From Acidobacteriota bacterium (GTDB taxonomy: Bacteria; Acidobacteriota; UBA6911): DNA of 52,788 bases. The stretch lies in the NCBI GenBank assembly GCA_012719455.1, contig JAAYAJ010000040.1, forward strand, positions 1-52,788, in the 5' to 3' direction. Numbering within the stretch: the first letter of the stretch is position 1; every line of letters starts with the position of its first letter. This document shows, piece by piece, positions 4,312 to 52,788 of this stretch. The translations under genes and the position numbers were made by a program. A model generated the notes under the pieces. It had not been told where the DNA came from, did not search any database, and saw only the letters and a program-made list of their open reading frames with translations.

Positions 4312-5161
4312 GGCGTGGCGTCTCCTTTGCTCCTCCCCTGCGCCGGCGCCTGAGAACGACATTGATTTGCGCCCCGGCCAGGATGACGATGCTCACCAGG
4401 TAGAGCCAGAGCATGAGGACGATCACGGCCCCCAGGCTGCCGTACATGGCGCGGTAATTTCCGATGTGGGTGATGTAGACCTGGAATCCCATCGACACAA
4501 CGGAGATCAACACCACGGCCGCCATCCCGCCCGCGGAGAACGGGAGGAACCTCCCGCGTCCCCCCCTCCCGAGGTAATACAGGAGTTCCAGCACCGTCAG
4601 CAGGAGCAGGGCGAGGATCGCCCTGCGCAGGATCGCGAACCCCCACTGCAGCGGCGCTCCCCATTCGAGCGCGGCCGCCATCCGGTCCTGGATCATGCCG
4701 CCGAAGATCAGGAGCGAGAGGGTGCCGAAGAGGAGGCAGACGAGAAGGAACATCAGGACCACGGCCGTCATGCGCGCCTTCCAGAACCACCGCGGTATCC
4801 TGGCGAAGTGGGTGCGGGCGATCTGCTTCATGGCCGCATACAGGCCCATGGAGGCGGACCAGAGGGTCAGCGCCAGGCCCAGGGTCAGCATCCCCCCCTC
4901 TCTTTCGGCCAGGACCTGCCCGACTATCCTCTCCAGGAGGACGGCCGCCTGGTCGGGAAGCGCATGGTGGATCAGGGCCATGACGGCCCGCGGCAGATCG
5001 GGGATCGGGAGAAAGGGGAGGAGGGAAAGGGTGAAAATGGTCGCCGGGAAGATGGAAAGGAGGAGGAAGAAGGCGACGGCGGCGGCGCTGGTCAGCACGT
5101 CGTCCTCCTTGAACTTCCGCCACAGTTGCAGGGCGAATTGCGCGGCCGGGATCAGGCTCAT
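4292..5161 (-). CDS. YihY/virulence factor BrkB family membrane protein
   Basis: 289-residue inner-membrane protein of the YihY/UPF0761 family (once called ribonuclease BN). It starts with an amphipathic stretch, then TSAAAVAFFLLLSIFPATI, the characteristic first membrane segment in which the AxAxxFFxLLSxFP pattern is kept, and about six membrane helices in all. The late motif LPFSAGGMAAVVLISVVSMGF and the helix GSLGAVIVLMLWLYLVSIVILAGAQIN are typical of the family end. Start chosen at the ATG at 5161 because AGGAAGG lies 9 bases upstream; the frame stays open a further 66 codons upstream but has no ribosome site and no family similarity. Role in the cell is not established for the family. 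Confidence 0.88.
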   Translation of the reverse strand: MSLIPAAQFALQLWRKFKEDDVLTSAAAVAFFLLLSIFPATIFTLSLLPFLPIPDLPRAVMALIHHALPDQAAVLLERIVGQVLAEREGGMLTLGLALTLWSASMGLYAAMKQIARTHFARIPRWFWKARMTAVVLMFLLVCLLFGTLSLLIFGGMIQDRMAAALEWGAPLQWGFAILRRAILALLLLTVLELLYYLGRGGRGRFLPFSAGGMAAVVLISVVSMGFQVYITHIGNYRAMYGSLGAVIVLMLWLYLVSIVILAGAQINVVLRRRRRGGAKETPRLTGNGA

Positions 5162-5344
5162 CCAGGATATCCTTCCTGATTTCCACCGGCGGTCCGTCCG
5201 GGGCGGCGGTGGAAATCGTTTTATCCGGGTGATGGATAGCGTAGTATGGAGCCGGGATTTTGACAAGCGCGGGCGTCCGAGGGCGTTCCGCGCGGGGGCG
5301 GGTGTCGGGGTGCCCTCCGGTGCGGTCATCGAGGGGAGCGGCGC

Positions 5345-6223
5345 GTGGAACTGAGACATTTAAGATATTTCGTGGCCGTCGCCGAGCAACTCCATTTCCG
5401 CCACGCGGCCAAGATCGTCAACGTGACCCAGCCCGCCCTGAGCCAGCAGATCCGGCAGTTGGAGAAGGAGCTGGGGGTCGTCCTGCTCGAACGGTCCCGC
5501 CACCAGGTGCGGCTGACCCCCGCAGGTAAGGTGTTTTACGAGAACGCGCTCGGAGTGCTCCGCCAGGTGGACCTGGCGGCGGCGAAGGCGCGCAAGGTGG
5601 ACAGCGGGGACGCCGGCACGATCCGGATCGGCTTCATCAGCACGGCGGCTATCCGGGTGCTCCCCGACGGGGTGAAGCGGCTGCAGAAACAGGTTCCCGC
5701 GGCCGAGGTTGAACTGAGCGAACTCGCGTCCGGGGAACAGATCGACGGGCTGTACCGGGAGCAGCTGGATATCGGGTTCGTCCATGCCAAGTTGACGCGC
5801 GACGTCCTCGGCACGAGGATCGTCGCGCGCGACCGGCTGATCGCGGCTGTGCCCGAATCCGGCGCCCTGGCCCGGTGCCGGCGCGTGGACATCCGGGACC
5901 TTGCCTGCTGGCCGACGATCATGCCGGCCAGCCACTCGAGTTCCGGGTTCCACGAACAGGTGCGCATGGCGTACCAGATGGCGGGGGTGCGGCCGGAGCA
6001 GGTGCACTACACGCGCCTGCTGCAGACCGGACTCCTGCTGGTGGCGGCCGGAGTGGGGGTTTCGCTCGTGCCGGAATCGTTCCAACTGATGCACGTCCGG
6101 GGGGTCGCCTACAGGAGGCTGCGGGTGGACCCGCCGCTGTGCGAGATGGTTGCCGTGTGGCGCCGGGACAATGCCTTGCCGCTGCTCGCGCGCTTTATCC
6201 GGTGCCTGCCGGAATTGGGTTGA
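5345..6223 (+). CDS. LysR family transcriptional regulator
   Basis: 292-residue LTTR. Residues 1-60 are the winged helix-turn-helix, with the hallmark LRYFVAVAEQLHF, AA, VTQPALSQQIRQLEKELG and LERSRHQVRLTPAG. Residues 90-290 form the periplasmic-binding-protein-like effector domain. GAGGGGAGCGGCGCGTG lies just before the ATG. Divergent from the YihY-type gene (starts 5161) and followed by a convergent alpha/beta hydrolase, so no obvious target operon is fixed by context; the 183-bp divergent region is the natural place for its site. Effector unknown. Similar in layout to BenM/CatM/CynR-type LTTRs. Confidence 0.92.
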   Translation: MELRHLRYFVAVAEQLHFRHAAKIVNVTQPALSQQIRQLEKELGVVLLERSRHQVRLTPAGKVFYENALGVLRQVDLAAAKARKVDSGDAGTIRIGFISTAAIRVLPDGVKRLQKQVPAAEVELSELASGEQIDGLYREQLDIGFVHAKLTRDVLGTRIVARDRLIAAVPESGALARCRRVDIRDLACWPTIMPASHSSSGFHEQVRMAYQMAGVRPEQVHYTRLLQTGLLLVAAGVGVSLVPESFQLMHVRGVAYRRLRVDPPLCEMVAVWRRDNALPLLARFIRCLPELG

Positions 6224-6304
6224 GACTCCTAATAATTATTTCTTATCACCAGGGCACGATCTTACTATTGGACGGGGCGCCGCCGCCGGGGTAATATAAT
6301 AGCA

Positions 6305-6967
6305 TCAAGATAATAAGGACCCGAGCCAGCCGGAAAGATCCAGAAGGCTCTGCCGGCCGACACGGTGTGGGGTAGGGTACTCCCGGTAGGTCAGTTCCGC
6401 GGAACTTTTGTGGATGAGGTCCCGGGCACGGCGGGCGAATTCCACGGGAACGACCGTGTCGGCGGTGCCGTGGGCCAGGAACAGGGAAAGCCCTTCCAAG
6501 CGGTCCCACGTGAACTCGAGCGACGTGTTCTCGGGGACGTAGCCGCTGTGGGCGACGACGCCGCGCACCTCACCGGGAGCCGTCAGGGACAAGGCTAAGG
6601 CCATGACGCTCCCCATGCTGAAGCCGAGCAGGAACACCTTCCGGTGGTCCACCGGGTAGCCGGTTTTTACGTCGCGGACGAACAGCCGCAGCCGGCACAG
6701 GCTCTCGGCGAACTGCTCCGGGTGGGGGGTGAAGGGGGCCGGGATGTCGTACCAGGTGCAGGCGCCCGGTTGCCGCCCGTAGGGGAAGGGGGCACGCACG
6801 CTCAGGATAAAGAAGCGCGGGTCGAGGTGGGGCGCGAGCCTCAAAAGGGTGTCTTCGCGGGCTCCCTGCCCGTGCAGCAGGATCAGGGCCGGGGGTGCGC
6901 CGGCGCCGGCCCGGGCGGGCGGCAGGAGCCTGTGAACGAGCGTCGACGATATCGGGTTGGTTTCCAT
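6305..6967 (-). CDS. Alpha/beta hydrolase, phospholipase/carboxylesterase family
   Basis: 220-residue cytoplasmic esterase of the phospholipase/carboxylesterase (YpfH/EstB-like) group. LILLHGQGA forms the oxyanion-hole loop, GFSMGS gives the nucleophile Ser117, HGTADTVVP the acid Asp170, and PTPHRVG the base His201, so the triad is complete and in the right order. No signal peptide. The ATG at 6967 was chosen because the family similarity begins there; a GGGAGG lies 12 bases upstream, a little far. The frame is open upstream to 7078 but that part looks like untranslated upstream DNA. Faces the LysR gene tail to tail. Substrate unknown. Confidence 0.85.
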   Translation of the reverse strand: METNPISSTLVHRLLPPARAGAGAPPALILLHGQGAREDTLLRLAPHLDPRFFILSVRAPFPYGRQPGACTWYDIPAPFTPHPEQFAESLCRLRLFVRDVKTGYPVDHRKVFLLGFSMGSVMALALSLTAPGEVRGVVAHSGYVPENTSLEFTWDRLEGLSLFLAHGTADTVVPVEFARRARDLIHKSSAELTYREYPTPHRVGRQSLLDLSGWLGSLLS

Positions 6968-12770: not shown

Positions 12771-14069
12771 TCAGGGGCAGCGCAGCACGCCCCGGGCCCA
12801 CAGGCAATGGCCGCACACGGGGAACGGGTTGCCGTGGCAATCGGTCTCGTTCCCCTCGGCGAATTCGCATCCACAGCAATCGATGCAGGGTGAAAACTCG
12901 AAAGTCCTCACCCGCTGCCTGAAAGCGGCGTAATCGGGCTGGCGCCAGATCGACCCCAGGGAGTGTTCCGCCAGGTTCCCGTATTCGCAGCGCCGGAAAG
13001 TCTTTTTCCAGTCCCGGATGTAACAGGTATAGGAGTGCAGCAGCGGCGGGCAGGGGCTGACCCCGCCGTGGCAGGATACCGCCAGGCTCCCGGGCCGGAT
13101 GAAGGGGCAGTAGTTATTGCGCTGGCCCAGGTTGAGGTCGAGGTAGCTCAGGTTCGCCTGCTGGCGGGCCACGGCGGCCACGGCTTCTAGGGTTTCCCGG
13201 CTCCAGTCCATCCGGGGGAGAATCCAGAGCGGGTTGCGCGGGTCCCCCCCGGACTCGTGGCTGGTGGGGGACAGGTCGTAGAGGACCTGGTCCTGGAGTT
13301 CGGGCGCGTAGGGCAGCACGTTCGAGACCAGGATGAAGGAAGCCCTGATCTTTTTGGCGATCTCCTGGAGCCCGGGCAGTTCGTGGATGTTGCTCTTCAT
13401 CGCCACGAACTCGATCCCGATCCGCACCGGCGCCGGCGGCATGGAATCGAGCACGTCCTCCAGGGGGTAGATGTAATCCGCCATCTCGATGGGGGGCGAG
13501 GGCTCCCCGGCCACTTCCCGGAGCCACGCCATGGTTTCCTCTTTCACCCCCCTTCCGGCGCCGGGGGGCGTGGTGTGCTTCACCAGGCTCCAGAGGTAGA
13601 GGGTGCGGACATTGCCCACGATCCGGTCGAGTGACGCCCCGGGCCGGATGGCGCCGTGCGAAGGGTCCGAGGTCCCGTCAATGGAGACGGTGACCTGGTC
13701 CAGGCCGGCATCCACCAGTTGTTCCGCCAGCGCCGAGGTCAGGAGCATCGCGTTGGTCGTCATCTCCGTCCGCAATCCGCTGTCGTGGGCCAGCCGGATC
13801 ATGTCGGGGAAGCGGGGGTGCAGGAGCGGCTCCCCGAAGCCGGCGAAGGCGATCGTTTCCGCCTCCGGGAAGTCAGCCAGCCCCTCGATCAGGTTCCGGT
13901 ATGCGGGCCAGGACAAATCCTCGAACGATTCGTCCCAGGAGTGGCGGATGCAAGTGACGCAACTGAGGTTGCAGCGGTTGGTGGGTTCTACGTAGATCTT
14001 GGTCAGGGGATCGGAGGCGCGGTCCGCCGGGGCGGGGGGCGCGGCGCCGCCGGGTCTCTCGTCGTTCAT
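12771..14069 (-). CDS. Radical SAM/SPASM protein, likely tungsten-cofactor oxidoreductase maturase
   Basis: 432-residue radical SAM enzyme. EPTNRCNLSCVTC gives the CxxxCxxC cluster motif at Cys33, Cys37 and Cys40, and AFAGFGEPLLHP is the GGE-equivalent SAM motif. The C-terminal third is rich in Cys (SCHGGVSPCPPLLHSYTCYI, then SPCIDCCGCEFAEGNETDC and CGHC), as in SPASM auxiliary-cluster domains. Position next to an AOR-family oxidoreductase and a MoaD-like protein matches the known family of radical SAM maturases linked to tungsten-cofactor oxidoreductases; that link is from context plus family resemblance. Has 103 bases after the MoaD-like gene. A short Ala/Pro-rich N-terminal extension (residues 1-20) precedes the core. 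Confidence 0.85.
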   Translation of the reverse strand: MNDERPGGAAPPAPADRASDPLTKIYVEPTNRCNLSCVTCIRHSWDESFEDLSWPAYRNLIEGLADFPEAETIAFAGFGEPLLHPRFPDMIRLAHDSGLRTEMTTNAMLLTSALAEQLVDAGLDQVTVSIDGTSDPSHGAIRPGASLDRIVGNVRTLYLWSLVKHTTPPGAGRGVKEETMAWLREVAGEPSPPIEMADYIYPLEDVLDSMPPAPVRIGIEFVAMKSNIHELPGLQEIAKKIRASFILVSNVLPYAPELQDQVLYDLSPTSHESGGDPRNPLWILPRMDWSRETLEAVAAVARQQANLSYLDLNLGQRNNYCPFIRPGSLAVSCHGGVSPCPPLLHSYTCYIRDWKKTFRRCEYGNLAEHSLGSIWRQPDYAAFRQRVRTFEFSPCIDCCGCEFAEGNETDCHGNPFPVCGHCLWARGVLRCP

Positions 14070-14172
14070 CTCTTTGTGGGTTCCTTCGGTGGATGGCGGA
14101 CAATCCGCCCGGACGGGCCCCGTTCGGGCCGCTTCCCGTCGGCAGGACCGGCGAAAAGCGGCCCACGGAGGG

Positions 14173-14397
14173 TCAGCCCCCCTCCATGTGGGGGTAGAGC
14201 TGGACGAAGTCGCCGTCCCTGACGACGCTGTCCAGGGGGGCCCAGACGCCGTTGATGAGCAGCATACCCACGCTGTCGGGGGGGAAGCCGAGCCGGGCTT
14301 CGAGCTCCGGCAGGGTCAGGGATGCGCCGATATCGAGCGTTTCCCGGTTCTTGCCCGCCATTTCCGCCAGCATCAGGTTGTATTCCAACTCGATCAT
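14173..14397 (-). CDS. MoaD/ThiS-like sulfur carrier
   Basis: 74-residue beta-grasp protein of the MoaD/ThiS family. MIELEYNLMLAEMAGK resembles the first strand, LLINGVWAPLDSVVRDGDFVQLYPHMEGG the end, and the mature C-terminal Gly-Gly is intact, so it can be adenylated by an E1-like enzyme and carry thiocarboxylate. It sits 10 bases after the AOR-family gene and upstream of the radical SAM maturase; together with the MoeB/ThiF-like gene at 16191 it suggests a dedicated pterin-cofactor supply for this one enzyme. Length is normal. Confidence 0.88.
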   Translation of the reverse strand: MIELEYNLMLAEMAGKNRETLDIGASLTLPELEARLGFPPDSVGMLLINGVWAPLDSVVRDGDFVQLYPHMEGG

Positions 14398-14407
14398 CGA
14401 GGTTTCC

Positions 14408-16123
14408 CTAGCGCAGTACCCCCTTCTGCATCTCCGCGTCGGAGAGATCGAACACCGAATTGTTGGGAGGCAATGGAATACGGTACATGTACTCCGGCAG
14501 CTTGTCCTGGGAAGGAGCGATGCCGGCCTTGACGTTGAACTCGTACTCCAGGCGCGCGGTCTCGTGCCCCTGCTCCCAGAACTCCTCCACCGTCATCTTG
14601 TCACCGCAGATGCCGTAGATGAACCGGGGGAAGAGCTCCGGTTTCTTGAACAGGTAGGACCGGACGAAGATGCAGAAGCCCGTGGTCTCGAGCCCCGCCA
14701 TCTGCAGCTGGGTCTTGCGGGACAGGTCCCCCTGGCCTTCGGTGGCCAGGGGCGGCATGGTGGCGCGCGCCCCGTAGAGGTTGCCCATGGTGTGGTCGGC
14801 CCCCATGGGGTTCATGGCGAAGGTGACGCCGTTCCCCTTCAGGGCGCGGGGGTCGTAGGCGGGCATCGCCTGCCCCTTGGTCATCGGCAGGTCGTTGATC
14901 CCAAGCACTTCCCCCGTGATCTTGACGCCGTTGCCGATTACGCGTCCCAGCGGCGTGGCGGCTTCGACCTCGGCCAGCAGCTTCATGAAGCTCTCTTCGT
15001 TGCCGAACTCGGCCAGGCCCGCTTCCGCGGCCACTCCCAGGGCGGCCCCGATCTCGATGGCGTCCTGCCCCAGGTCGTTCACCTTGTCGTTGAGGTGGGC
15101 GATACTGTCGAGGCTCCCGAGGCACAGGTTGGAGCCGAGGAGCGACAGGTTTTCGTACTGGAGGGTGGAGCAGATGGCATTGCCGTTCTCGTCGGGGAAG
15201 ACCGAGAGGCACTTGATCATGCAGCCGTTCATGCACGACTGGCCGGTTTTGCCGTCGCCGCCGCGGGCGCGGATGAGTTCGACCAACTTCTCGCCGCCGA
15301 TTTCAGTGTGAAAGTCGAAGGCTCCCAGGGTGAAATTGCGTGTAGGGCACAGGCCCAGCTCGTTGACGATCTTGAACATGCCGGAGGTGCCGTAGGTCTG
15401 GTTGGACTTCTTGATGGTGGGCATGGCGTCGATGAGCATCTGGTGGAAGTCCTTGGCGGCCTCGTTGAAGGCGGCCTTGTCGAAGTATTCCACCTTGGAA
15501 ATCTTGGCCGGGACGATGACGATGGCCTTCAGCCGCTTGCTCCCCATCACGGCGCCCATGCCGCCGCGCGCCGCGAAGCGCATCTCCCCGCGTGGGGCGG
15601 CGACGGCGACGCCGGCGCCGCGCATCAAGCGTTCGCCGGTGGGGCCGTTGCAGATGACGCCGGCCTTTTCGCCGAAGCGCGCCCGCAGCGTCTTGAAGGT
15701 GTCGCGCACCCCCAGGTACTCGAGCTCGTTCATGGCTTCGAGCCGGATTCCCTCGTCGGAAATCACCAGCACGTAGCTGTTGCGGTCGTCAGCGGCGGGC
15801 AGCCGTTCAATGATGACGGCCCGGATGTTGTGGCGCGCCAGGTCGTTCCCCGCCGTGCCGCCCGCGTTGGCTTCCTTGATCCCCTGGGTGAGCGGGCTCT
15901 TTCCCCCCACGGAGAGCCGGCCGGAGCTGGAGAGCAGGGTGCCGCCCAGCAGGCCGGTGCAGAAGATGAGCTTGTTGTGGATCCCAAGGGGCTCGCAGGT
16001 CGGGTCGACCTCGTCGGTGAGAAAGCGGGCGATAAAAGCGCGGCCGCCGTAGCGGTTGTATTTCCCGGCGTCCTCCTGGGTGATTTCCTTGGTTTCCATG
16101 TCGACTCTGATGATTTTCGTCAT
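14408..16123 (-). CDS. aor: Aldehyde:ferredoxin oxidoreductase family (tungsten/molybdenum bis-pterin enzyme)
   Basis: 571-residue AOR-family enzyme, cytoplasmic, oxidising aldehydes to acids with ferredoxin (or a related reaction). The N-terminal domain shows YGGRAFIARFL, GLLGGTLLSSSGRLSVGGKSP and GNDLARHNIRAVII, all AOR-N signatures, and RFAARGGMGAVMGSKRLKAI. The 4Fe-4S ligands appear as CMNGCMIKC near the middle and a Cys in the TTGFCIF segment; NPMGADHTMGN resembles the (D)PxGADHT pterin motif. Start taken at the ATG at 16123 with GGAG 11 bases before; a TTG six codons upstream is possible. Family includes BamB-type benzoyl-CoA reductase subunits, but the lack of partner subunits and the presence of the maturation set favour a simple AOR. 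Substrate unknown. Confidence 0.9.
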   Translation of the reverse strand: MTKIIRVDMETKEITQEDAGKYNRYGGRAFIARFLTDEVDPTCEPLGIHNKLIFCTGLLGGTLLSSSGRLSVGGKSPLTQGIKEANAGGTAGNDLARHNIRAVIIERLPAADDRNSYVLVISDEGIRLEAMNELEYLGVRDTFKTLRARFGEKAGVICNGPTGERLMRGAGVAVAAPRGEMRFAARGGMGAVMGSKRLKAIVIVPAKISKVEYFDKAAFNEAAKDFHQMLIDAMPTIKKSNQTYGTSGMFKIVNELGLCPTRNFTLGAFDFHTEIGGEKLVELIRARGGDGKTGQSCMNGCMIKCLSVFPDENGNAICSTLQYENLSLLGSNLCLGSLDSIAHLNDKVNDLGQDAIEIGAALGVAAEAGLAEFGNEESFMKLLAEVEAATPLGRVIGNGVKITGEVLGINDLPMTKGQAMPAYDPRALKGNGVTFAMNPMGADHTMGNLYGARATMPPLATEGQGDLSRKTQLQMAGLETTGFCIFVRSYLFKKPELFPRFIYGICGDKMTVEEFWEQGHETARLEYEFNVKAGIAPSQDKLPEYMYRIPLPPNNSVFDLSDAEMQKGVLR

Positions 16124-16190
16124 AAAGGATGTCTCCAACAAAGAAATGATTCCGGTATGGACACGATCGCTTCACGGCCTCCGTCAGCCC

Positions 16191-16928
16191 TCAGGATGAC
16201 GCGGCCTCCCCGCGGTTTCCGCACGTGGGGCAATCGGGACGCCGCCCTGCGACCAGGGGCGACAGCGTCCATGCGGAGCCGTCAAACAACATCAATCTCC
16301 CCGCCGGGCCCGGGCGTCCCAGCAACATCTGGAGCACCGCCAGGGCCTCCATGGAGCCTATGACGCCCGCCATGGGGCCCAGGGACACCGGCGCCCTTCC
16401 TCCGGGCTTCCGCTTTTCGAACCAGCACGAAAGGCAGGGCGTACTGCCCGGCACAACGGTTGTGACATACCCGCCCCAGCCGTCGATGCCGCCGTCCACC
16501 AGCGGTCTGCCCGCCGCGACACAGAGGCGGTTGGCCAGCAGCCGGGTTTCCCGGTTGTCCAGGGCCAGCGCCACGAGGTCGCTCCCGGCCACCAGCGCCG
16601 GGCCGTTCTCCCCGGTGAAACGCGCCGCGATGGGCGTCAGCCGCACCGTGCGGTTCAGCGCCGCGAGCCGCTCCGCCGCTTGCCCGGCCTTCGGGCGACA
16701 CAGGTCATTCTCCGCGTAGAGGATCTGGCGGTTCAGGTTGCTTTCCGCCACCCGGTCCTCGTCCACGAAGGTCAGGGTCCCGACTCCGGCTGCAGCCAGG
16801 TAGAAGAGCAGGGGGGAACCCAACCCCCCGGCGCCCACCACCAGGACCCGGGCGCGCGCGAGCTTTTCCTGGCCCTCCGCCCCAAGCAGCGCGAGCTGCC
16901 TGGCGTAGCGTTCCCCGCTCTGCGTCAT
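16191..16928 (-). CDS. MoeB/ThiF/HesA-family E1-like adenylyltransferase
   Basis: 245 residues, ATP-dependent activation of a ubiquitin-like sulfur carrier. VLVVGAGGLGSPLLFYLAAAG is the nucleotide-binding loop, FVDEDRVAESNLNRQILY the second conserved segment, and LALDNRETR the third. The zinc CxxC pairs are CLSCW and CPTCG near the C-terminus. A rhodanese domain, as seen in some MoeBR-type E1s, is absent. First gene of the probable AOR operon; 67 bases before the AOR start. The likely partner is the MoaD-like protein at 14173. GTGAGG lies just upstream of the ATG. Confidence 0.9.
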   Translation of the reverse strand: MTQSGERYARQLALLGAEGQEKLARARVLVVGAGGLGSPLLFYLAAAGVGTLTFVDEDRVAESNLNRQILYAENDLCRPKAGQAAERLAALNRTVRLTPIAARFTGENGPALVAGSDLVALALDNRETRLLANRLCVAAGRPLVDGGIDGWGGYVTTVVPGSTPCLSCWFEKRKPGGRAPVSLGPMAGVIGSMEALAVLQMLLGRPGPAGRLMLFDGSAWTLSPLVAGRRPDCPTCGNRGEAASS

Positions 16929-46283: not shown

Positions 46284-48563
46284 ATGAGCCAGCACGACAC
46301 CGGCAGCCAGTCCCGCGTCATCGTGGCCACGACGGCCATGCTCTCCTTCATCAGCTTCTGGCGCGCCGCGGCCATCGTCCTCAACGACCTCGGCTCCTCG
46401 GCCTACTACGTCGGGGGGATCGCCGAGCACGCGATCGGGAAATCGGCCCCCTGGTTCATCCTCGGGGTCATGCTCTTCTCCATCGCCGTCCGGAGCGTCT
46501 ACATCGAAAGCTCCATCCTCTTCGTCCGCGGCGGCGCCTACCGGGTGGTGAAGGAAGCCATGGGGCCGACGGCGGCCAAGGCCACCGTCTCCGCCCTCAT
46601 CTTCGATTTCCTCCTCACGGCGCCGATCAGCGGCGTCTCGGCCGGGCACTACCTGGTCGGCTTGATCAACGAGCTGGCCGCCTTCGCCGAGATCCCCCTG
46701 GAGCTGCCGCGCGACGTCGGGGCCGCCTTTTTCGCCATTCTCGTCATCCTCTACTTCTGGCGCCTGAACCTGGTCGGGATCGAGGAGTCGAGCTCGAAGG
46801 CCCTCTCCATCATGAAGGTAGCCAGCGTCATGGTGTCGGCCCTCATCTTCTGGGGAGGATGGACGCTGCTGGTGCGCGGGGGGCAGCCCGTTCCGCTCCC
46901 CGACCTCGGGAAGATGGATTTTCACCCCGGGGCGCTCGGGTGGCTCGGCGGCACGGCGCTGCCGGCCGTTCCGCTGGTGGCCCTCTTCATCGGCTTCGGG
47001 CACTCCATCCTGGCCCTGAGCGGCGAGGAGACCCTCGCGCAGGTGTACCGGGAGATCGCCCACCCGAAGTTCGCGAACCTCAAGCGGGCGGCGCTGACGA
47101 TCTTCGTCTTCAGCCTGGTGCTCACCTCGCTGGTGTCCTTCCTCGGCATCGCGCTGATCCCCGACGCCGAGCGCGCGCACTACCACGACAACCTCATCGG
47201 CGGCATCGCCATGAACCTCGCCGGCCCCTTCGCGCTCCGGCTCTGCTTCCACGTCTTCGTGGTGATCATCGGGGTGATGATGCTGGCCGGCGCCTGCAAC
47301 ACGGCCATCATCGGGTCCAACGGGGTGCTCAACCGGCTCAGCGAGGACGGGGTGCTGGTGGACTGGTTCCGGAAGGTGCACCGCGAGTACGGCACCACCT
47401 ACCGCTTCCTGAACCTGATCGTGGGGCTGCAGGTCCTGATCGTGATCGTCAGCCGCGGCGACGTCTTCATCCTGGGGGAGGCCTATGCCTTCGGCGTCAT
47501 CTGGAGCTTCGCCATGAACGCCCTGGCGACCCTAATCCTGCGCTTCAAACGGCCGGAGGCGCGGGAGTGGAAGGTCCCGCTCAATGTCCGCATCCGCGGC
47601 CGGGAGATCCCCGTCGGCCTGGCGTCCGTCACGGCCGTTCTTTTCGCCACCGCCATTGCCAACCTGCTGACCAAAAAGGTCGCCACGGTTTCCGGACTCC
47701 TTTTCACCGCCGTGATGTTCGTCGTCCTGGTCGTTTCGGAGCGGATTGCGACCGCGAAAAAGCTGAGCGAATCGAAGGACATGGAAAAATTCCTGCTCGA
47801 AGACCGGGCCGCCATCACCCGGGAGGCGGTCGACGTCCGCCCGGGCTGCATCGTCGTCGCCGTGCGCAACTACGAAACCCTCTACCCCCTGGAGAAGGTC
47901 CTCCGGAAGGCCAACACCCGGCAGCAGGACATCGTGGTCCTGACCGGTAGGAGGATGCGCGGGGTGCGCCACGACCAGGGGGCCCTGACCTGCGAGCAGA
48001 TCTTCATGAGCTTCGAGCAGAAGCTGTTCTCCCGCGCCGTCGCCATGGCGGAAAGGGAAGGGAAACGCATCAACCTGCTGGTGGTCCCCGGCAACGACAT
48101 CTCCGACATCATCATCCGGTCCGCGCTCCAGCTGAAGGCCTCCAAGGTGGTCGCCGGGATTTCCAACCGGATGCCGATGGAGGAGCAGGCGCGCCGGCTG
48201 GGGGAGGCCTGGGAGGCGGCGGGGCCCCACAGCCGCGGCCTGACGCTCGAACTGATCGACCGCCGGCTGAAGTCCCACTTCTTCGACATCGGCCCCCACC
48301 CCCCGCGCCTCTGGCCGGTGGACATCGGGCGGCTGCACGAGATGTGGCTCCGGCTCTCGCGGGAGAAATTCGGGGCCGAACTGCATCACCGCGACGTCGT
48401 GGGCGTGGCCCTCAAGCGCCTCGACCGGGACCTGGACGACCCCGCCCGCAAGGAGGAGGTCATGCGGGAACTCTGCGCGGAGCTGGTGAGCGACCAGCAC
48501 CGGCGCGAGTTCGCCGGGCGCGACGCCGTCAAAAAGGACCCGGCTTCCGATTCGGAAGAGTGA
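46284..48563 (+). CDS. APC-superfamily permease with large C-terminal soluble domain
   Basis: 759 residues. Residues 10-500 contain about 12-14 membrane helices of the amino acid-polyamine-organocation fold (SFWRAAAIVLNDLGSSAYYVGG, FGHSILALSGEETLAQVYREI). The first helix differs from the usual GxG motif. Residues about 510-759 are soluble, with an alternating alpha/beta pattern (RPGCIVVAVRNYETLYPLEKVL, RINLLVVPGNDISDIIIRSALQLKASKVVAG) that recalls universal-stress-like domains found on some cation/chloride and amino acid carriers. A GGAGG is 15 bases upstream of the ATG. Substrate unknown. Confidence 0.85.
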   Translation: MSQHDTGSQSRVIVATTAMLSFISFWRAAAIVLNDLGSSAYYVGGIAEHAIGKSAPWFILGVMLFSIAVRSVYIESSILFVRGGAYRVVKEAMGPTAAKATVSALIFDFLLTAPISGVSAGHYLVGLINELAAFAEIPLELPRDVGAAFFAILVILYFWRLNLVGIEESSSKALSIMKVASVMVSALIFWGGWTLLVRGGQPVPLPDLGKMDFHPGALGWLGGTALPAVPLVALFIGFGHSILALSGEETLAQVYREIAHPKFANLKRAALTIFVFSLVLTSLVSFLGIALIPDAERAHYHDNLIGGIAMNLAGPFALRLCFHVFVVIIGVMMLAGACNTAIIGSNGVLNRLSEDGVLVDWFRKVHREYGTTYRFLNLIVGLQVLIVIVSRGDVFILGEAYAFGVIWSFAMNALATLILRFKRPEAREWKVPLNVRIRGREIPVGLASVTAVLFATAIANLLTKKVATVSGLLFTAVMFVVLVVSERIATAKKLSESKDMEKFLLEDRAAITREAVDVRPGCIVVAVRNYETLYPLEKVLRKANTRQQDIVVLTGRRMRGVRHDQGALTCEQIFMSFEQKLFSRAVAMAEREGKRINLLVVPGNDISDIIIRSALQLKASKVVAGISNRMPMEEQARRLGEAWEAAGPHSRGLTLELIDRRLKSHFFDIGPHPPRLWPVDIGRLHEMWLRLSREKFGAELHHRDVVGVALKRLDRDLDDPARKEEVMRELCAELVSDQHRREFAGRDAVKKDPASDSEE

Positions 48564-48581: not shown

Positions 48582-50324
48582 CTAATGCCGGTGCGGTTTC
48601 GCGCCGGCTTCCAGGCAGGGACCCAGAAAGAGGAGGAAGAGGTCGTTATCCCGGGCCTTCTCGATCACGTCCCGGAATTCCCGGACGTTGGTCCGCACCA
48701 CCTTTTCAAGCCCCGAGTACCCGGCTTCAAAGACGACGGCGGCCGGCGCGTCGGCCGGGTAGGCGGCGCCGAAGAACTCCGACAACTGGGCCAGGTCCTT
48801 CCGTCCCAGGAAGATGCTCAGGGTCGCGCCCCCCCGCGCCGCCTCCCTGAAGAGGACCTCGTTTTCCAGGACCCCCTTGCCGTCGGCGAGGACCATGGCG
48901 CCGCGGCACCCGGTGTGGCGCTCGAGCAGGGCGCTGGCCACGTTGAACGAACTCAGCCCCGCCACGATCTCGTACTCGGCGGGGTCGAGGTTCTCGCGCA
49001 GGTATTCGGTGGCGCCCCATATGGTGGGGTCCCCGTAGTCAAGGAGGGCGACCGTCTTCCCCCGCGCGATTTCGGCCCGGATGGTGTCGGCGATCCCGCG
49101 CCAGGTCTCCTGCATTTTCTCCATGAGCTTCTCACCCGAAAGGTCCGCGTGCTTGCGCGCCAGCTTGGGGGGGAGGAAGTCGTAGAAATCGAGCAGGACG
49201 GGCTTGTCCCCCAGGTACTTGGAAAAGCGCTTCTGGATGTCGGGGGTGCAGATCAGAGTGTCGGTCCGGCCGATGGCGGTGAGCGCCTCCAGGGTGACCA
49301 GGTCGGCGTCCCCGCTCCCGATCCCGATGAAGTAGAGTTGCGGCTTGCGCCGCAGGTCGATCGCCTCGATTTTCTCCAGCGCCTTGATGTCCCGGTCGCT
49401 CATGAGGTCGGCGGCGGGGATGAGGGCGAACTTCCCCCCCCGGTCGAGGAGCTTCCCGTCCTCGGTGTCGGCGATGAGCAGGTCGTTCCCGGCCGACTGC
49501 AGGAAGATCTCCCCGTGGGAGAAGGCGGAGCGGTAGCCGTCGGGGGCGGAAAAGAGGAAGATGTCCGACAGGCGCGAGGCGACGCCCGCCTGTTCGAGGA
49601 CTGCGCGGAGCGGCGCCCCGGCATAGTCGTGAGAACCGTTGTAGCCGCTCCCTTCCCCCATGTGGGCCGAGCGCAGCTCGCGCCGCGGCAGCCCCGCGAG
49701 CGTGTCGATGACGCGCCCCCGCGCGCCGGCCCCGGTCACCGAAAAGGAGGGCGCGAACAGCTTCTCCATCTTTTTCGAACCCACCCCGGGCCGGAGGTTG
49801 ACGACCTCGATCGATACCACGTTTTCGATCGATCGGTCGGCGTAGTCGTCCGCCGCCGCCACCAGCTTGGGGAAGCCGATCTTCCGGTTGAATTGCTCCG
49901 CGTAGCGCTCGGTGGCGTCCGACTTGTGGCGCGGGCGGATCGGGACTGCGGAGGTGGCGATGATGACGTCGGCCGAATTCCGGAAAAAGATTTCTCCCCA
50001 GGAGAAGGCGACCTCCAGCCCCTCGCGGTTGCGCACGACGACGGCGAGGTCGATCATCTTGGCGAAGCCCGAATCCTCCTTTTCCACCAGCGCGGCCTCG
50101 AGCAGGGTCCGGAGCGGCACGCCGTCGAAATGCCACGAGCCGCGGTAGGAGCCGTCCCGCAGGATCTCGTTCTGCTGGACCCGGACGGTTTTGAACACGC
50201 CCAGCTTTTCCGTGGAAAGGTTCAGCGGCTGCTTTACCGAGCCCCCGATGGTGAAGGACGCGCCGAAGAGGCTCGCCCCCGAGAACAAGACCCCGGCCAA
50301 CAATCCCAACATCCTCTTTTTCAT
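48582..50324 (-). CDS. Exported protein: duplicated molybdopterin-oxidoreductase-like domain plus tetrapyrrole methylase
   Basis: 580 residues. Signal peptide 1-22. Two related domains: residues 23-127 (RGSWHFDGVPLRTLLEAA, AFSWGEIFF) and 193-323 (NGSHDYAGAPLRAVLEQA, AFSHGEIFL) look like the sulfite-oxidase fold, but the Cys that ligates molybdenum is not seen in either. Residues 329-570 are a tetrapyrrole (corrin/porphyrin) methylase: YFIGIGSGDADLVTLEAL and LLDYGDPTIWG keep the SAM-binding GxGxGDxxLxT and GDPxxxG motifs, and AGLSSFNVASALL the PG(V)SS segment. An exported SAM-dependent methylase domain is odd because SAM is not normally in the periplasm. His-rich tail (KPHRH). Divergent from a second exported methylase at 50612. 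Confidence 0.85.
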   Translation of the reverse strand: MKKRMLGLLAGVLFSGASLFGASFTIGGSVKQPLNLSTEKLGVFKTVRVQQNEILRDGSYRGSWHFDGVPLRTLLEAALVEKEDSGFAKMIDLAVVVRNREGLEVAFSWGEIFFRNSADVIIATSAVPIRPRHKSDATERYAEQFNRKIGFPKLVAAADDYADRSIENVVSIEVVNLRPGVGSKKMEKLFAPSFSVTGAGARGRVIDTLAGLPRRELRSAHMGEGSGYNGSHDYAGAPLRAVLEQAGVASRLSDIFLFSAPDGYRSAFSHGEIFLQSAGNDLLIADTEDGKLLDRGGKFALIPAADLMSDRDIKALEKIEAIDLRRKPQLYFIGIGSGDADLVTLEALTAIGRTDTLICTPDIQKRFSKYLGDKPVLLDFYDFLPPKLARKHADLSGEKLMEKMQETWRGIADTIRAEIARGKTVALLDYGDPTIWGATEYLRENLDPAEYEIVAGLSSFNVASALLERHTGCRGAMVLADGKGVLENEVLFREAARGGATLSIFLGRKDLAQLSEFFGAAYPADAPAAVVFEAGYSGLEKVVRTNVREFRDVIEKARDNDLFLLFLGPCLEAGAKPHRH

Positions 50325-50385
50325 ACCCCCCCGCCCTTCCGTTGAGACCCCGGTATGCCCGGGGCGTTTTCCGACACAGGGCGAC

Positions 50386-50415
50386 ATTATGCGATTCCTG
50401 GGGCGCTTTTAGCAA
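50386..50415 (-). promoter_or_regulatory. Sigma-70 promoter for the double-domain exported protein
   Basis: Minus strand TTGCTA (50415-50410), 18-base spacer, CATAAT (50391-50386), 62 bases upstream of the start codon. Confidence 0.5.
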
Positions 50416-50506
50416 ATTTTTGCCGCCGGGATCCCGCTGCCGAGGGCAAGCACCGCCGAATTTACGAGCGCTTGCGTCAACCCGCATTCGACCGCCTGCA
50501 AATCCC

Positions 50507-50536
50507 TTGCATTGAAAAACGACTGTCGTGTATAAA
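50507..50536 (+). promoter_or_regulatory. Sigma-70 promoter for exported tetrapyrrole methylase
   Basis: TTGCAT (50507-50512), 18-base spacer, TATAAA (50531-50536), 76 bases before the start. About 90 bases separate the two divergent -35 boxes, enough for a shared regulator. Confidence 0.6.
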
Positions 50537-50611
50537 GAACAACCGTATGCTACAGGCGACGCCACCGGTCGCGGTGGCCGGGAACAATCCAATCTTTACG
50601 GGAGAGTACAC

Positions 50612-51496
50612 ATGAAACGGAGCATGAGATATTTCCTGCCGGTTCTGGTCCTGATGGGGGCCGCCGTTGCCCACGCGGGCCAGGGGAAGTTTTACATTGT
50701 CGGGATGGGAACCGCGAAGGACCTGATCACGGTGCGCGCCCTGGAGGTGATCAAAAGCGCCGATATCATCCTGATGGGAACCGACGGGGAGGATTCCCCT
50801 TGGCAGGAATACCTCAAGGGGAAGGAGGTCTGGCCCCGCCCGATAGCGCTGCGGGTCTTTTACGGCGCCGACCCGGAAAAGATCGCCGACCCCCAACAGC
50901 GCGCCCGGGCCGAAAAGGGGATCAAGGCCAGGAAAGAGCTCGTCGACCGGGTCACCGCGGCGGTCAGGGAAGGCAAAATCGTGGCTGACCTGCAGGGGGG
51001 CGACCCCATGATTTTCGGGCTCACCTTCATGCTCGAGCAGCTTCCGAAGGACATCCCCACCGAGGTGGTCCCGGGAGTGGGCGCTTTCCAGGCGGCCAGC
51101 GCCGCCGTCAAGATGAGCCCTCCCTTCGGCTATGACACCAGCGGCGTCATCCTGACCATGGACGATTGGGAAGGCCGGGTGGACGTCAACGAAAAGCTCA
51201 TGGCCGCCGGCAGCACCATGGTCGTCTATACCATGATGCTCAGATACGAACGCCTGTTCGACCAGTTGAAGAAGCACTATCCGGCCGATACCCCGGTGGC
51301 CGCCGTCATCGACGCGGGCGACCGACAGAACCAGAAGGTGCTTCGCAGCACGGTCGGCCGGTTCATCGACGAAATCGACTACAAAAACCTCCCCAACGAG
51401 CGGCTCATCCTGCTTATCGGCAAATTCCTGGAGGTGGGGATGGCGCGCAAGGACTTCGTCCCCGAAGTTTCCGGCGGTCACGCCCCGCTGCCGTAG
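50612..51496 (+). CDS. Exported tetrapyrrole methylase-family protein
   Basis: 294 residues. MKRSMRYFLPVLVLMGAAVAHAG is a signal peptide with an AHA cleavage site near residue 22. The rest is a tetrapyrrole-methylase fold: FYIVGMGTAKDLITVRALEVIKSADIIL (opening, in pieces), LQGGDPMIFG (127-136) and VVPGVGAFQAASAA (152-165), the sites for S-adenosylmethionine. About 60 residues between the first and second motif are charged and unlike CbiF/CobA. GGGAG nine bases before the ATG. Together with the divergent exported protein at 48582 it forms a pair with the same domain and the same export signal type. Confidence 0.85.
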   Translation: MKRSMRYFLPVLVLMGAAVAHAGQGKFYIVGMGTAKDLITVRALEVIKSADIILMGTDGEDSPWQEYLKGKEVWPRPIALRVFYGADPEKIADPQQRARAEKGIKARKELVDRVTAAVREGKIVADLQGGDPMIFGLTFMLEQLPKDIPTEVVPGVGAFQAASAAVKMSPPFGYDTSGVILTMDDWEGRVDVNEKLMAAGSTMVVYTMMLRYERLFDQLKKHYPADTPVAAVIDAGDRQNQKVLRSTVGRFIDEIDYKNLPNERLILLIGKFLEVGMARKDFVPEVSGGHAPLP

Positions 51497-51730: not shown

Positions 51731-52291
51731 ATGAAACGCTCCCTCCCTGTTCTTTGTCTCCTGCTGGCCCTGCCCCTTTGCGCCGTTTCCGTCAAGGCGC
51801 AATCGACCTCCGCTGGCAAGACCGCCCCGTCCATCAAGGGGGTGTGGTCCATCGTGGAAATGGATATCGGCGCCGGGGACAAGAAGGAAACCACGATGCC
51901 CAAGGCGTTCATGATGTACATCATGGACAAGCACTACAGCTCGATCCGCGACCTGTCGCAGCGGGAGGGCTCCACTTCCAGCGGCGGCGCCTACGGGACC
52001 ACCCGGAGTTTCATGGCCGACGCCGGAACCTACGAATACGACGGGTCCACCCTGGTCGTCCATCACATGGTGTCGATGATGGGCGGGGGTGGGACCTCGA
52101 TGACGTTCAAGGTCCAGATGGAAGGGAACGATACCCTCATTCTCATGCCCCAGTACGACAAGATGGTGATGCCGGCAAAGAGCGCGGCTCCGGCCGCCAA
52201 GGGTCCGGGAATGGGCGCTGCTCCGGCCGCCAAGGGACCGATGACGGGGAGCGGCATGGCCGTCCGCTACAAATTCAAGCGGCTGGAATAG
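51731..52291 (+). CDS. Secreted lipocalin-like protein
   Basis: 186 residues. MKRSLPVLCLLLALPLCAVSVKAQ is a signal peptide with cleavage near VKA-QS. Residues 35-160 are beta-rich (IKGVWSIVEMDI, AGTYEYDGSTLVVHHMVSM, TFKVQMEGNDTLILMP), like the lipocalin-like proteins of unknown function often next to catabolic genes. Between 150 and 172 two copies of APAAKGP form a spacer encoded by a 17-bp direct repeat. A TATACT (51588-51593) about 140 bases upstream may be its -10, without a clear -35. AAAGGTG precedes the ATG. Confidence 0.7.
   Translation: MKRSLPVLCLLLALPLCAVSVKAQSTSAGKTAPSIKGVWSIVEMDIGAGDKKETTMPKAFMMYIMDKHYSSIRDLSQREGSTSSGGAYGTTRSFMADAGTYEYDGSTLVVHHMVSMMGGGGTSMTFKVQMEGNDTLILMPQYDKMVMPAKSAAPAAKGPGMGAAPAAKGPMTGSGMAVRYKFKRLE
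52187..52236 (+). repeat. 17-bp direct repeat within the lipocalin-like gene
   Basis: GCTCCGGCCGCCAAGGG occurs at 52187-52203 and again at 52220-52236, period 33 bases (11 codons). It encodes the APAAKGP spacer units, probably a recent slip duplication. Confidence 0.9.
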
Positions 52292-52341: not shown

Positions 52342-52788
52342 CGTGACCCTTCTCGCGGACGGGAACAACGAGCTGTGGCGCATTTCTCCCGCAGGGGAAG
52401 TGGAGGTCGTCCCCAGGGACTACGAGGAGAAGCGGCTGAACGGCATCATCGGCACCCCGGACGGAAGATACCTCTACGTCGCCGATGTCGGCGCCCGCAA
52501 AACCTTCCGCTACGCCATCGGGCCCGACGGGACCCTCTCGGGCAAGAAGCTCTTCTGCGAGATGGGCTCGGACGGGATGACGATCGACAGCGAAGGGAAC
52601 CTCTATCTCACCGGGATGGGAGTGACGGTGTTCAGCCCGCAGGGGGAAAGGATCCAGCACGTTCCCGTACCGTCCTCCTGGACCTCCAACGTCTGCTTCT
52701 GCGGCAAAGACGGGCAAACCCTCGTCATCACCGCCTCCGACAAGCTCTTCGGCCTGCGCATGCGGGTGAAAGGCGTGGGAAGCCAGTA
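52342..52788 (+). pseudogene. Gluconolactonase/SMP-30-like, front half missing (runs off window)
   Basis: The frame from a GTG at 52342 reads through the window edge. LNGIIGTPDGRYLYVADVGARKTFRY, MTIDSEGNLYLTGMGVTVFSPQG and SNVCFCGKDGQTLVITA correspond to the second half of the six-bladed SMP-30/gluconolactonase propeller; full proteins are about 300 residues and have two or three blades and metal ligands before this part. The in-frame stop of the preceding gene (52289-52291) bars a longer N-terminus, and there is no ribosome site. So the gene looks truncated on its 5' side, or its first part was replaced. It may continue to the right. Confidence 0.6.

Follow-up and report, generated by a model that had tools for sequence, protein, structure and literature searches.

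Proteins of the tetrapyrrole-methylase (TPM) family (PF00590) include the cytoplasmic corrin and siroheme methyltransferases CbiF/CobM and SUMT/CysG/NirE. For export of a tetrapyrrole-enzyme fold to the periplasm there is a precedent, CbiK-P, the periplasmic cobaltochelatase of Desulfovibrio, which differs by family in being a chelatase and not a PF00590 member. The oxyanions of molybdenum and tungsten (Mo/W) are served by the importers WtpABC, TupABC, and ModABC. PruR is an exported, periplasmic pterin-binding protein that has the sulfite-oxidase (SUOX) fold without the molybdenum-ligating Cys (PMC13259868; PDB 7KOS, 7RKB). TonB-dependent nickel uptake, as described in passages of two reports, combines a TonB receptor, a periplasmic metal protein, and the inner-membrane importer NikMQO/CbiMQO; the periplasmic component is either DUF4198, a secreted nickel-binding protein found next to TonB receptors (PMC12537917), or NikK/NikL, predicted periplasmic parts of NikMQO (PMC545781). 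No TPM component is mentioned in those passages. In this study, we analyzed a divergent gene pair from an Acidobacteriota bacterium (assembly GCA_012719455.1; 2.79 Mb, 97% complete), for which the window is an entire contig of 52,788 bp (JAAYAJ010000040.1; C13). The two genes encode an exported SUOX–TPM fusion (A) and an exported TPM-fold protein (B), which we interpret, with a probability of about 0.62, as periplasmic or periplasm-facing parts of a TonB-dependent molybdate/tungstate acquisition system.

Gene A (48582–50324, minus strand; 580 residues) encodes a signal peptide, two SUOX-fold repeats (residues ~22–180 and ~190–325), and a TPM domain (~328–573), as judged from its open reading frame (ORF), coding score, and Pfam matches. 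Gene B (50612–51496, plus strand; 294 residues) encodes a signal peptide and one TPM domain, according to Pfam and the predicted fold. Both genes are intact and coding by codon statistics, and the coordinates given for the divergent pair by an earlier sequence-only reading of the window are correct. The ORF of A spans 48582–50387 on the minus strand, with a homolog-supported start at 50324 (MKKRMLGLLAGVLFSGASLFGA), and for B the listed GTG start (50528) is too far upstream and the conserved one is at 50612 (MKRSMRYFLPVLVLMGAAVAHA). Sequence prediction places A, B, and their homologs outside the cytoplasm, in which the named methyltransferases reside. The best 11-residue stretch has a mean hydropathy of 2.21 in A and 2.50 in B, compared with at most 1.48 in ten cytoplasmic TPMs, and both signal peptides carry a +3 charge before the hydrophobic core and small residues at −3/−1. 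Homologs in Acidobacteria, Spirochaetes, Deltaproteobacteria, Phycisphaerales, and Myxococcales metagenome-assembled genomes (MAGs) start at the same point and keep the signal peptide or a lipobox, with stop codons a short distance upstream of the start in most of them. The signal peptides described by the sequence-only reading are confirmed. Homologs with a long cytoplasmic N-terminus, which it had named as the observation that would point to a mis-called start, were looked for and not found, and such a start is excluded.

The gene neighborhoods of the homologs point to metal uptake. We surveyed 62 homologous loci and 20 random control loci from the same genomes, counting genes within 5 kb as neighbors and confirming key members with Pfam and NCBIfam. 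A TonB-dependent receptor was present at 42 of the homologous loci and at none of the controls (Fisher 2e-8), and at the nine A loci examined it lies on the strand of A, 18–349 bp away. Mo/W genes were found at 17 of the 39 loci of the A, B, and FmdE-linked type-2 branches taken together (A, 6/18; B, 6/16; type-2, 5/5), compared with 1/23 in a further exported branch (N) and 0/20 in the controls. Nickel/cobalt (Ni/Co) genes (DUF4198, NikL-like, and CbiM) had the opposite distribution, with 0/39 in the A/B/type-2 branches, 16/23 in the N branch, and 1/20 in the controls. Oxyanion importer components exceed their curated cut-offs at five loci (WtpA, ModA, ModB, or ModC at L008, L078, L050, L149, and L152). 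In a Spirochaete locus, B lies directly 3′ of wtpABC (WtpA, 401 bits; cut-off, 355), and in two other genomes (G322 and G560) it adjoins modABC, with ModA above the cut-off (L078 and L050). ModB and ModC pass theirs beside A in L149, and in L152 a stand-alone protein with 47% identity to the SUOX half of A is encoded immediately ahead of the genes for WtpA (377 bits; cut-off, 355) and for a TonB receptor. TupA-like proteins accompany B in three genomes (G349, G604, and G560). One genome (G483) unites the components in a single operon, A-APC permease-TonB receptor-ExbB-ExbD-TonB-B, and an operon-type APC permease occurs at 19 of the 62 loci. The search for TonB receptors and ABC importers that the sequence-only reading had recommended thus gave a strong positive result, and it supports the proposal made there of an undescribed system outside the cytoplasm for cofactor handling or metal acquisition, whose proteins may bind a tetrapyrrole, a pterin, or a metal and not methylate.

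The TPM domains of both proteins are secure members of the superfamily (PF00590: A, 111.8 bits, E 5.8e-32; B, 121.4 bits, E 6.7e-35; cut-off, 27.8), and they fall far below the NCBIfam equivalog cut-offs of all named corrin and siroheme methyltransferases, the best score being 93.8 bits to TIGR01465 (cut-off, 259.65). B as modeled by AF2 (pLDDT 80) has CbiF as its best Foldseek match (2cbf; E 2.8e-16, target TM 0.74), and the model of A (pLDDT 83, pTM 0.80) comprises two SUOX-fold repeats plus a TPM domain that matches CbiF 4e16 with a VIA Z of 14.6. Exported homologs of B with 54–80% identity occur in several phyla, and among the B homologs the nearest named relatives are Acidobacteria MAGs. 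The S-adenosylmethionine (SAM) motifs GxGxGD, GDP, and PGV, described as intact by the sequence-only reading, are only partly so. GDP is kept in both proteins, GxGxGD in A (GIGSGDADL), and PGV in B, but AGLSS replaces PGV in A, and in B the first loop (GMGTA-KDL) has no GD and is shorter by one residue. YDxL and GKxxH, the motifs for the SUMT substrate, are present in the SUMT rows of the alignment and absent from the A, B, type-2, and N consensus sequences.

A profile built for exported TPMs gives at least 173 bits to full-length exported members and at most 105 bits to cytoplasmic ones, and by this score A and B belong to a coherent exported group apart from the cytoplasmic SUMT/Cbi/RsmI enzymes. 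In the phylogenetic tree, B (13 rows), A (4 rows), and the type-2 proteins (5 rows) form supported clades, and there are several more exported clades. Apart from a long cytoplasmic branch of three rows, which is nested inside with weak support, the exported rows separate from the cytoplasmic ones, and a single origin of the exported TPMs is neither shown nor excluded. The PF00590 members of the host genome are A, two B-type proteins (in the window and on C6), one type-2 protein (C28), and RsmI, with no others. Because four TPMs are exported in this genome and RsmI is its only cytoplasmic member, siroheme or corrin synthesis is not their role, and the missed equivalog cut-offs lead to the same rejection. 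The family is sparse. Only 7 of 347 Acidobacteriota genomes match B at E<1e-25, some of them via type-2 proteins only, and in the phylum of G349 all four genomes with B also have A, compared with A in 17 of 395 genomes overall (p 2.4e-6).

The SUOX half of A is clear in the predicted fold, and Pfam detects one repeat only, weakly (PF00174; 25.3 bits, cut-off 24). Repeat 2 superposes on sulfite oxidase 3hbg (VIA Z 16.1, 138 residues, rmsd 2.4) and on PruR 7kom (VIA Z 15.2, 121 residues, rmsd 2.1, 16% identity), and repeat 1 falls inside structural alignments to sulfite dehydrogenase. Residues 1–358 contain no Cys and therefore no molybdenum ligand of the sulfite-oxidase type, in agreement with the two Cys-less repeats noted from the sequence. 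A thus resembles PruR, as defined in PMC13259868, in export and in a SUOX fold that lacks the molybdenum Cys. It differs in having two repeats fused to a TPM domain and in its partners, which are TonB receptors and Mo/W importers in the A-family operons and DcpA in the case of PruR. Because the repeats resemble PruR, a pterin- or tetrapyrrole-like metal chelate would be the likeliest ligand by analogy. Most A homologs have a CxxCH heme motif in repeat 1, which is absent in the species of the window and its nearest relative. Membrane-protein pairs adjoin A-type genes at seven loci (L039, L140, L144, L145, L147, L149, and L150); they appear CcsA-like by eye, and their likeness to ResB is weak (15.4 bits in L144).

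The host genome encodes candidate partners on other contigs. Its oxyanion importers are modABC on C40 and tupABC on C33, where two moeA genes and a gene for an HTH-PBP regulator accompany the latter. On C28 (L105/L037, ~4680–6964), the type-2 exported TPM stands beside one gene that fuses a CxxCH-bearing FmdE domain to a TupA-like protein, and FmdE, TPM, and TupA-like genes occur together again in four other genomes (G007, G008, G009, and G386). The best TonB receptor candidate of the host lies on C102 (G000:C102:32304-34358). Receptors of this class adjoin Mo/W-type binding proteins in sister species (G004 C48, G006 C44, G007 C282, and G008 C4) and gene A in G007, a member of the genus of the window, in which A is downstream of the receptor. 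The window also carries a gene cluster (12771–16928, minus strand) for the tungsten enzyme AOR (AFOR_N and AFOR_C; 14408–16123) with ThiS-like, radical SAM/SPASM, and ThiF-family genes. In G008, AOR, ThiS-like, and radical-SAM genes have a TonB receptor and a TupA-like protein as neighbors, on a contig (C4) that also carries B. Proteins with HTH_17 and PBP_like (PF12727) domains, candidate Mo/W-responsive regulators, adjoin four loci (L008 3716–4633, L137 7532–8449, L154 4220–5098, and L186 6082–6981), and the HTH-PBP regulator next to tupABC of the host is similar to them. The TonB receptors of the genus of the window (L180, L182, L183, L184, L187, and L039) carry ~100 additional N-terminal residues (TKQ..W..DL...) ahead of the plug, an unusual feature that they share.

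We tentatively propose a pathway for this system; its exact mechanism is more doubtful than the assignment itself. An outer-membrane TonB-dependent receptor, for which the C102 protein is the candidate, would import a Mo/W complex. In the periplasm, B, and A through its SUOX repeats, would bind the complex or its organic part and help to free the metal, and the oxyanion would then be handed to ModABC or TupABC. The TPM fold may have been re-used here to bind a planar heterocyclic chelate, with the SUOX repeats, having lost the molybdenum Cys, serving in the manner of PruR as a pterin-type module, and the operon APC permease could recycle an amino-acid-like ligand. Binding in place of methylation, the nature of the ligand, and metal release are steps that we infer. 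Mo/W is the most likely metal of the A/B branch, and would also be the metal in the species of the window, with Ni/Co served by the sister branch; this second assignment is anchored by DUF4198 and NikK/NikL, which PMC12537917 and PMC545781 describe as nickel-system parts. The sister TPMs sit in such nickel operons, whereas the A/B branch partners Mo/W genes, which suggests that what the two branches have in common is the chelate and not the metal. A and B are direct gene neighbors of WtpABC, TupABC, or ModABC in several genomes, as is the SUOX half of A, but they are not PBP-fold binding proteins and would add a periplasmic stage tied to the TonB receptor. More broadly, the TPM fold, with or without PruR-like repeats, may define a widespread, undescribed periplasmic class of metal-chelate receptors through which anaerobes take up Mo/W, or Ni/Co in the sister branch, by a TonB-dependent route using an organic metallophore or a scavenged cofactor; we regard this generalization as possible, at somewhat less than even odds.

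Several observations weigh against the assignment to Mo/W acquisition. Ten of the 16 B loci, mostly from Acidobacteria, and 12 of the 18 A/SUOX loci have no Mo/W gene within 5 kb, and the TupA-like neighbors score under the TupA equivalog cut-off. The hidden Markov models used for neighbors were built from the same loci. The contig of the window carries neither a TonB receptor nor a Mo/W transporter, and A in this species lacks the CxxCH motif typical of most of its homologs. The APC permease that adjoins A in the window (46284–48563), convergent with it and kept in synteny in sister species, belongs to a different subfamily from the operon APC permease (E 0.001), and its membership in the system is not supported. 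Finally, the function assigned to A and B is drawn wholly from gene neighborhood, family, and fold.

Other explanations account for parts of these data. The TonB receptor could import whole molybdopterin or tungstopterin, corrinoids, F430, or other tetrapyrroles, with the TPM and SUOX proteins binding, dismantling, or delivering the cofactor. Such salvage would suit a TPM fold that naturally holds tetrapyrroles and a SUOX fold that holds pterins, with repeat 2 of A matching both PruR and molybdenum-cofactor enzymes, and it agrees with the one informative Rfam match of the study, a cobalamin riboswitch that precedes genes for a TonB receptor and for an exported protein with tandem TPM domains, two in number (region L053 7157–11369). 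However, the partner importers serve oxyanions (WtpABC, ModABC, and TupA) or Ni/Co ions (CbiMQO and DUF4198), and no cofactor importer was seen at the surveyed loci, which makes salvage fairly unlikely. It is quite improbable that A belongs to a redox or heme module acting in c-type cytochrome handling, with metal genes adjacent for some other reason. The CxxCH motifs of most A homologs and of the FmdE neighbors, and the weakly ResB-like membrane pairs beside A, are what such a module would have, but the motif is missing from A in the species of the window and its close relative, and the recurrence of TonB receptors, ExbBD, and Mo/W importers argues against it.

The remaining two alternatives keep A and B as methyltransferases. 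True methyltransferases working in the envelope, supplied there with SAM or a similar donor, perhaps to modify a metallophore, would explain the retained GDP motif, GxGxGD in A, PGV in B, and the CbiF-like fold; the shortened first SAM loop of B, the absence of YDxL and GKxxH from all exported groups, and the lack of any known SAM supply outside the cytoplasm make this very improbable. Cytoplasmic cobalamin or siroheme enzymes with a wrongly called start would fit the fold and Pfam family, but this explanation is effectively refuted: signal peptides stand at the true start in several phyla, with upstream stops close in most cases, the best NCBIfam score is far below its cut-off, and the genome encodes no other cobalamin or siroheme methyltransferase.

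If the Mo/W acquisition reading is correct, metal uptake would be the function of many proteins now annotated as methyltransferases of cobalamin or siroheme synthesis. The component family identified here recurs in several phyla and splits into Mo/W and Ni/Co branches. The finding also suggests that a biosynthetic enzyme fold was adopted outside the cell membrane for ligand binding. Many anaerobic enzymes are limited by the supply of Mo/W, yet open-access searches turned up no account of a TonB-dependent route for molybdate or tungstate. Open-access searches combining tetrapyrrole methylase with tungstate, TonB, or nickel likewise returned no relevant description, and within that literature the exported-TPM system is probably undescribed.

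The 287-bp intergenic region common to A and B (50325–50611), read directly from the sequence, contains outward sigma70-like promoters for both genes. That of B (50507–50536, plus strand) is TTGCAT-18 bp-TATAAA, aligned upstream of B in G006 and G004, and that of A (50386–50415, minus strand) is TTGCTA-18 bp-CATAAT, aligned upstream of A in G006. The divergent promoter region predicted by the sequence-only reading is thus conserved in sister species. No metal-regulator palindrome was recognized in this region, and neither the window nor the A loci searched (L136–L145) gave an Rfam match. A PEP-CTERM-like ORF of 58 residues (L038 1032–1205 and L042 4143–4316) is situated between A and B in G006 and beside B in G004; it is not called in the window. 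Downstream of B, the window encodes a small exported protein (51731–52291, plus strand) with a Lipocalin_8 score below the cut-off and an SMP-30/gluconolactonase (52343–52786, plus strand) truncated by the contig end; homologs of both are found downstream of B in G004.

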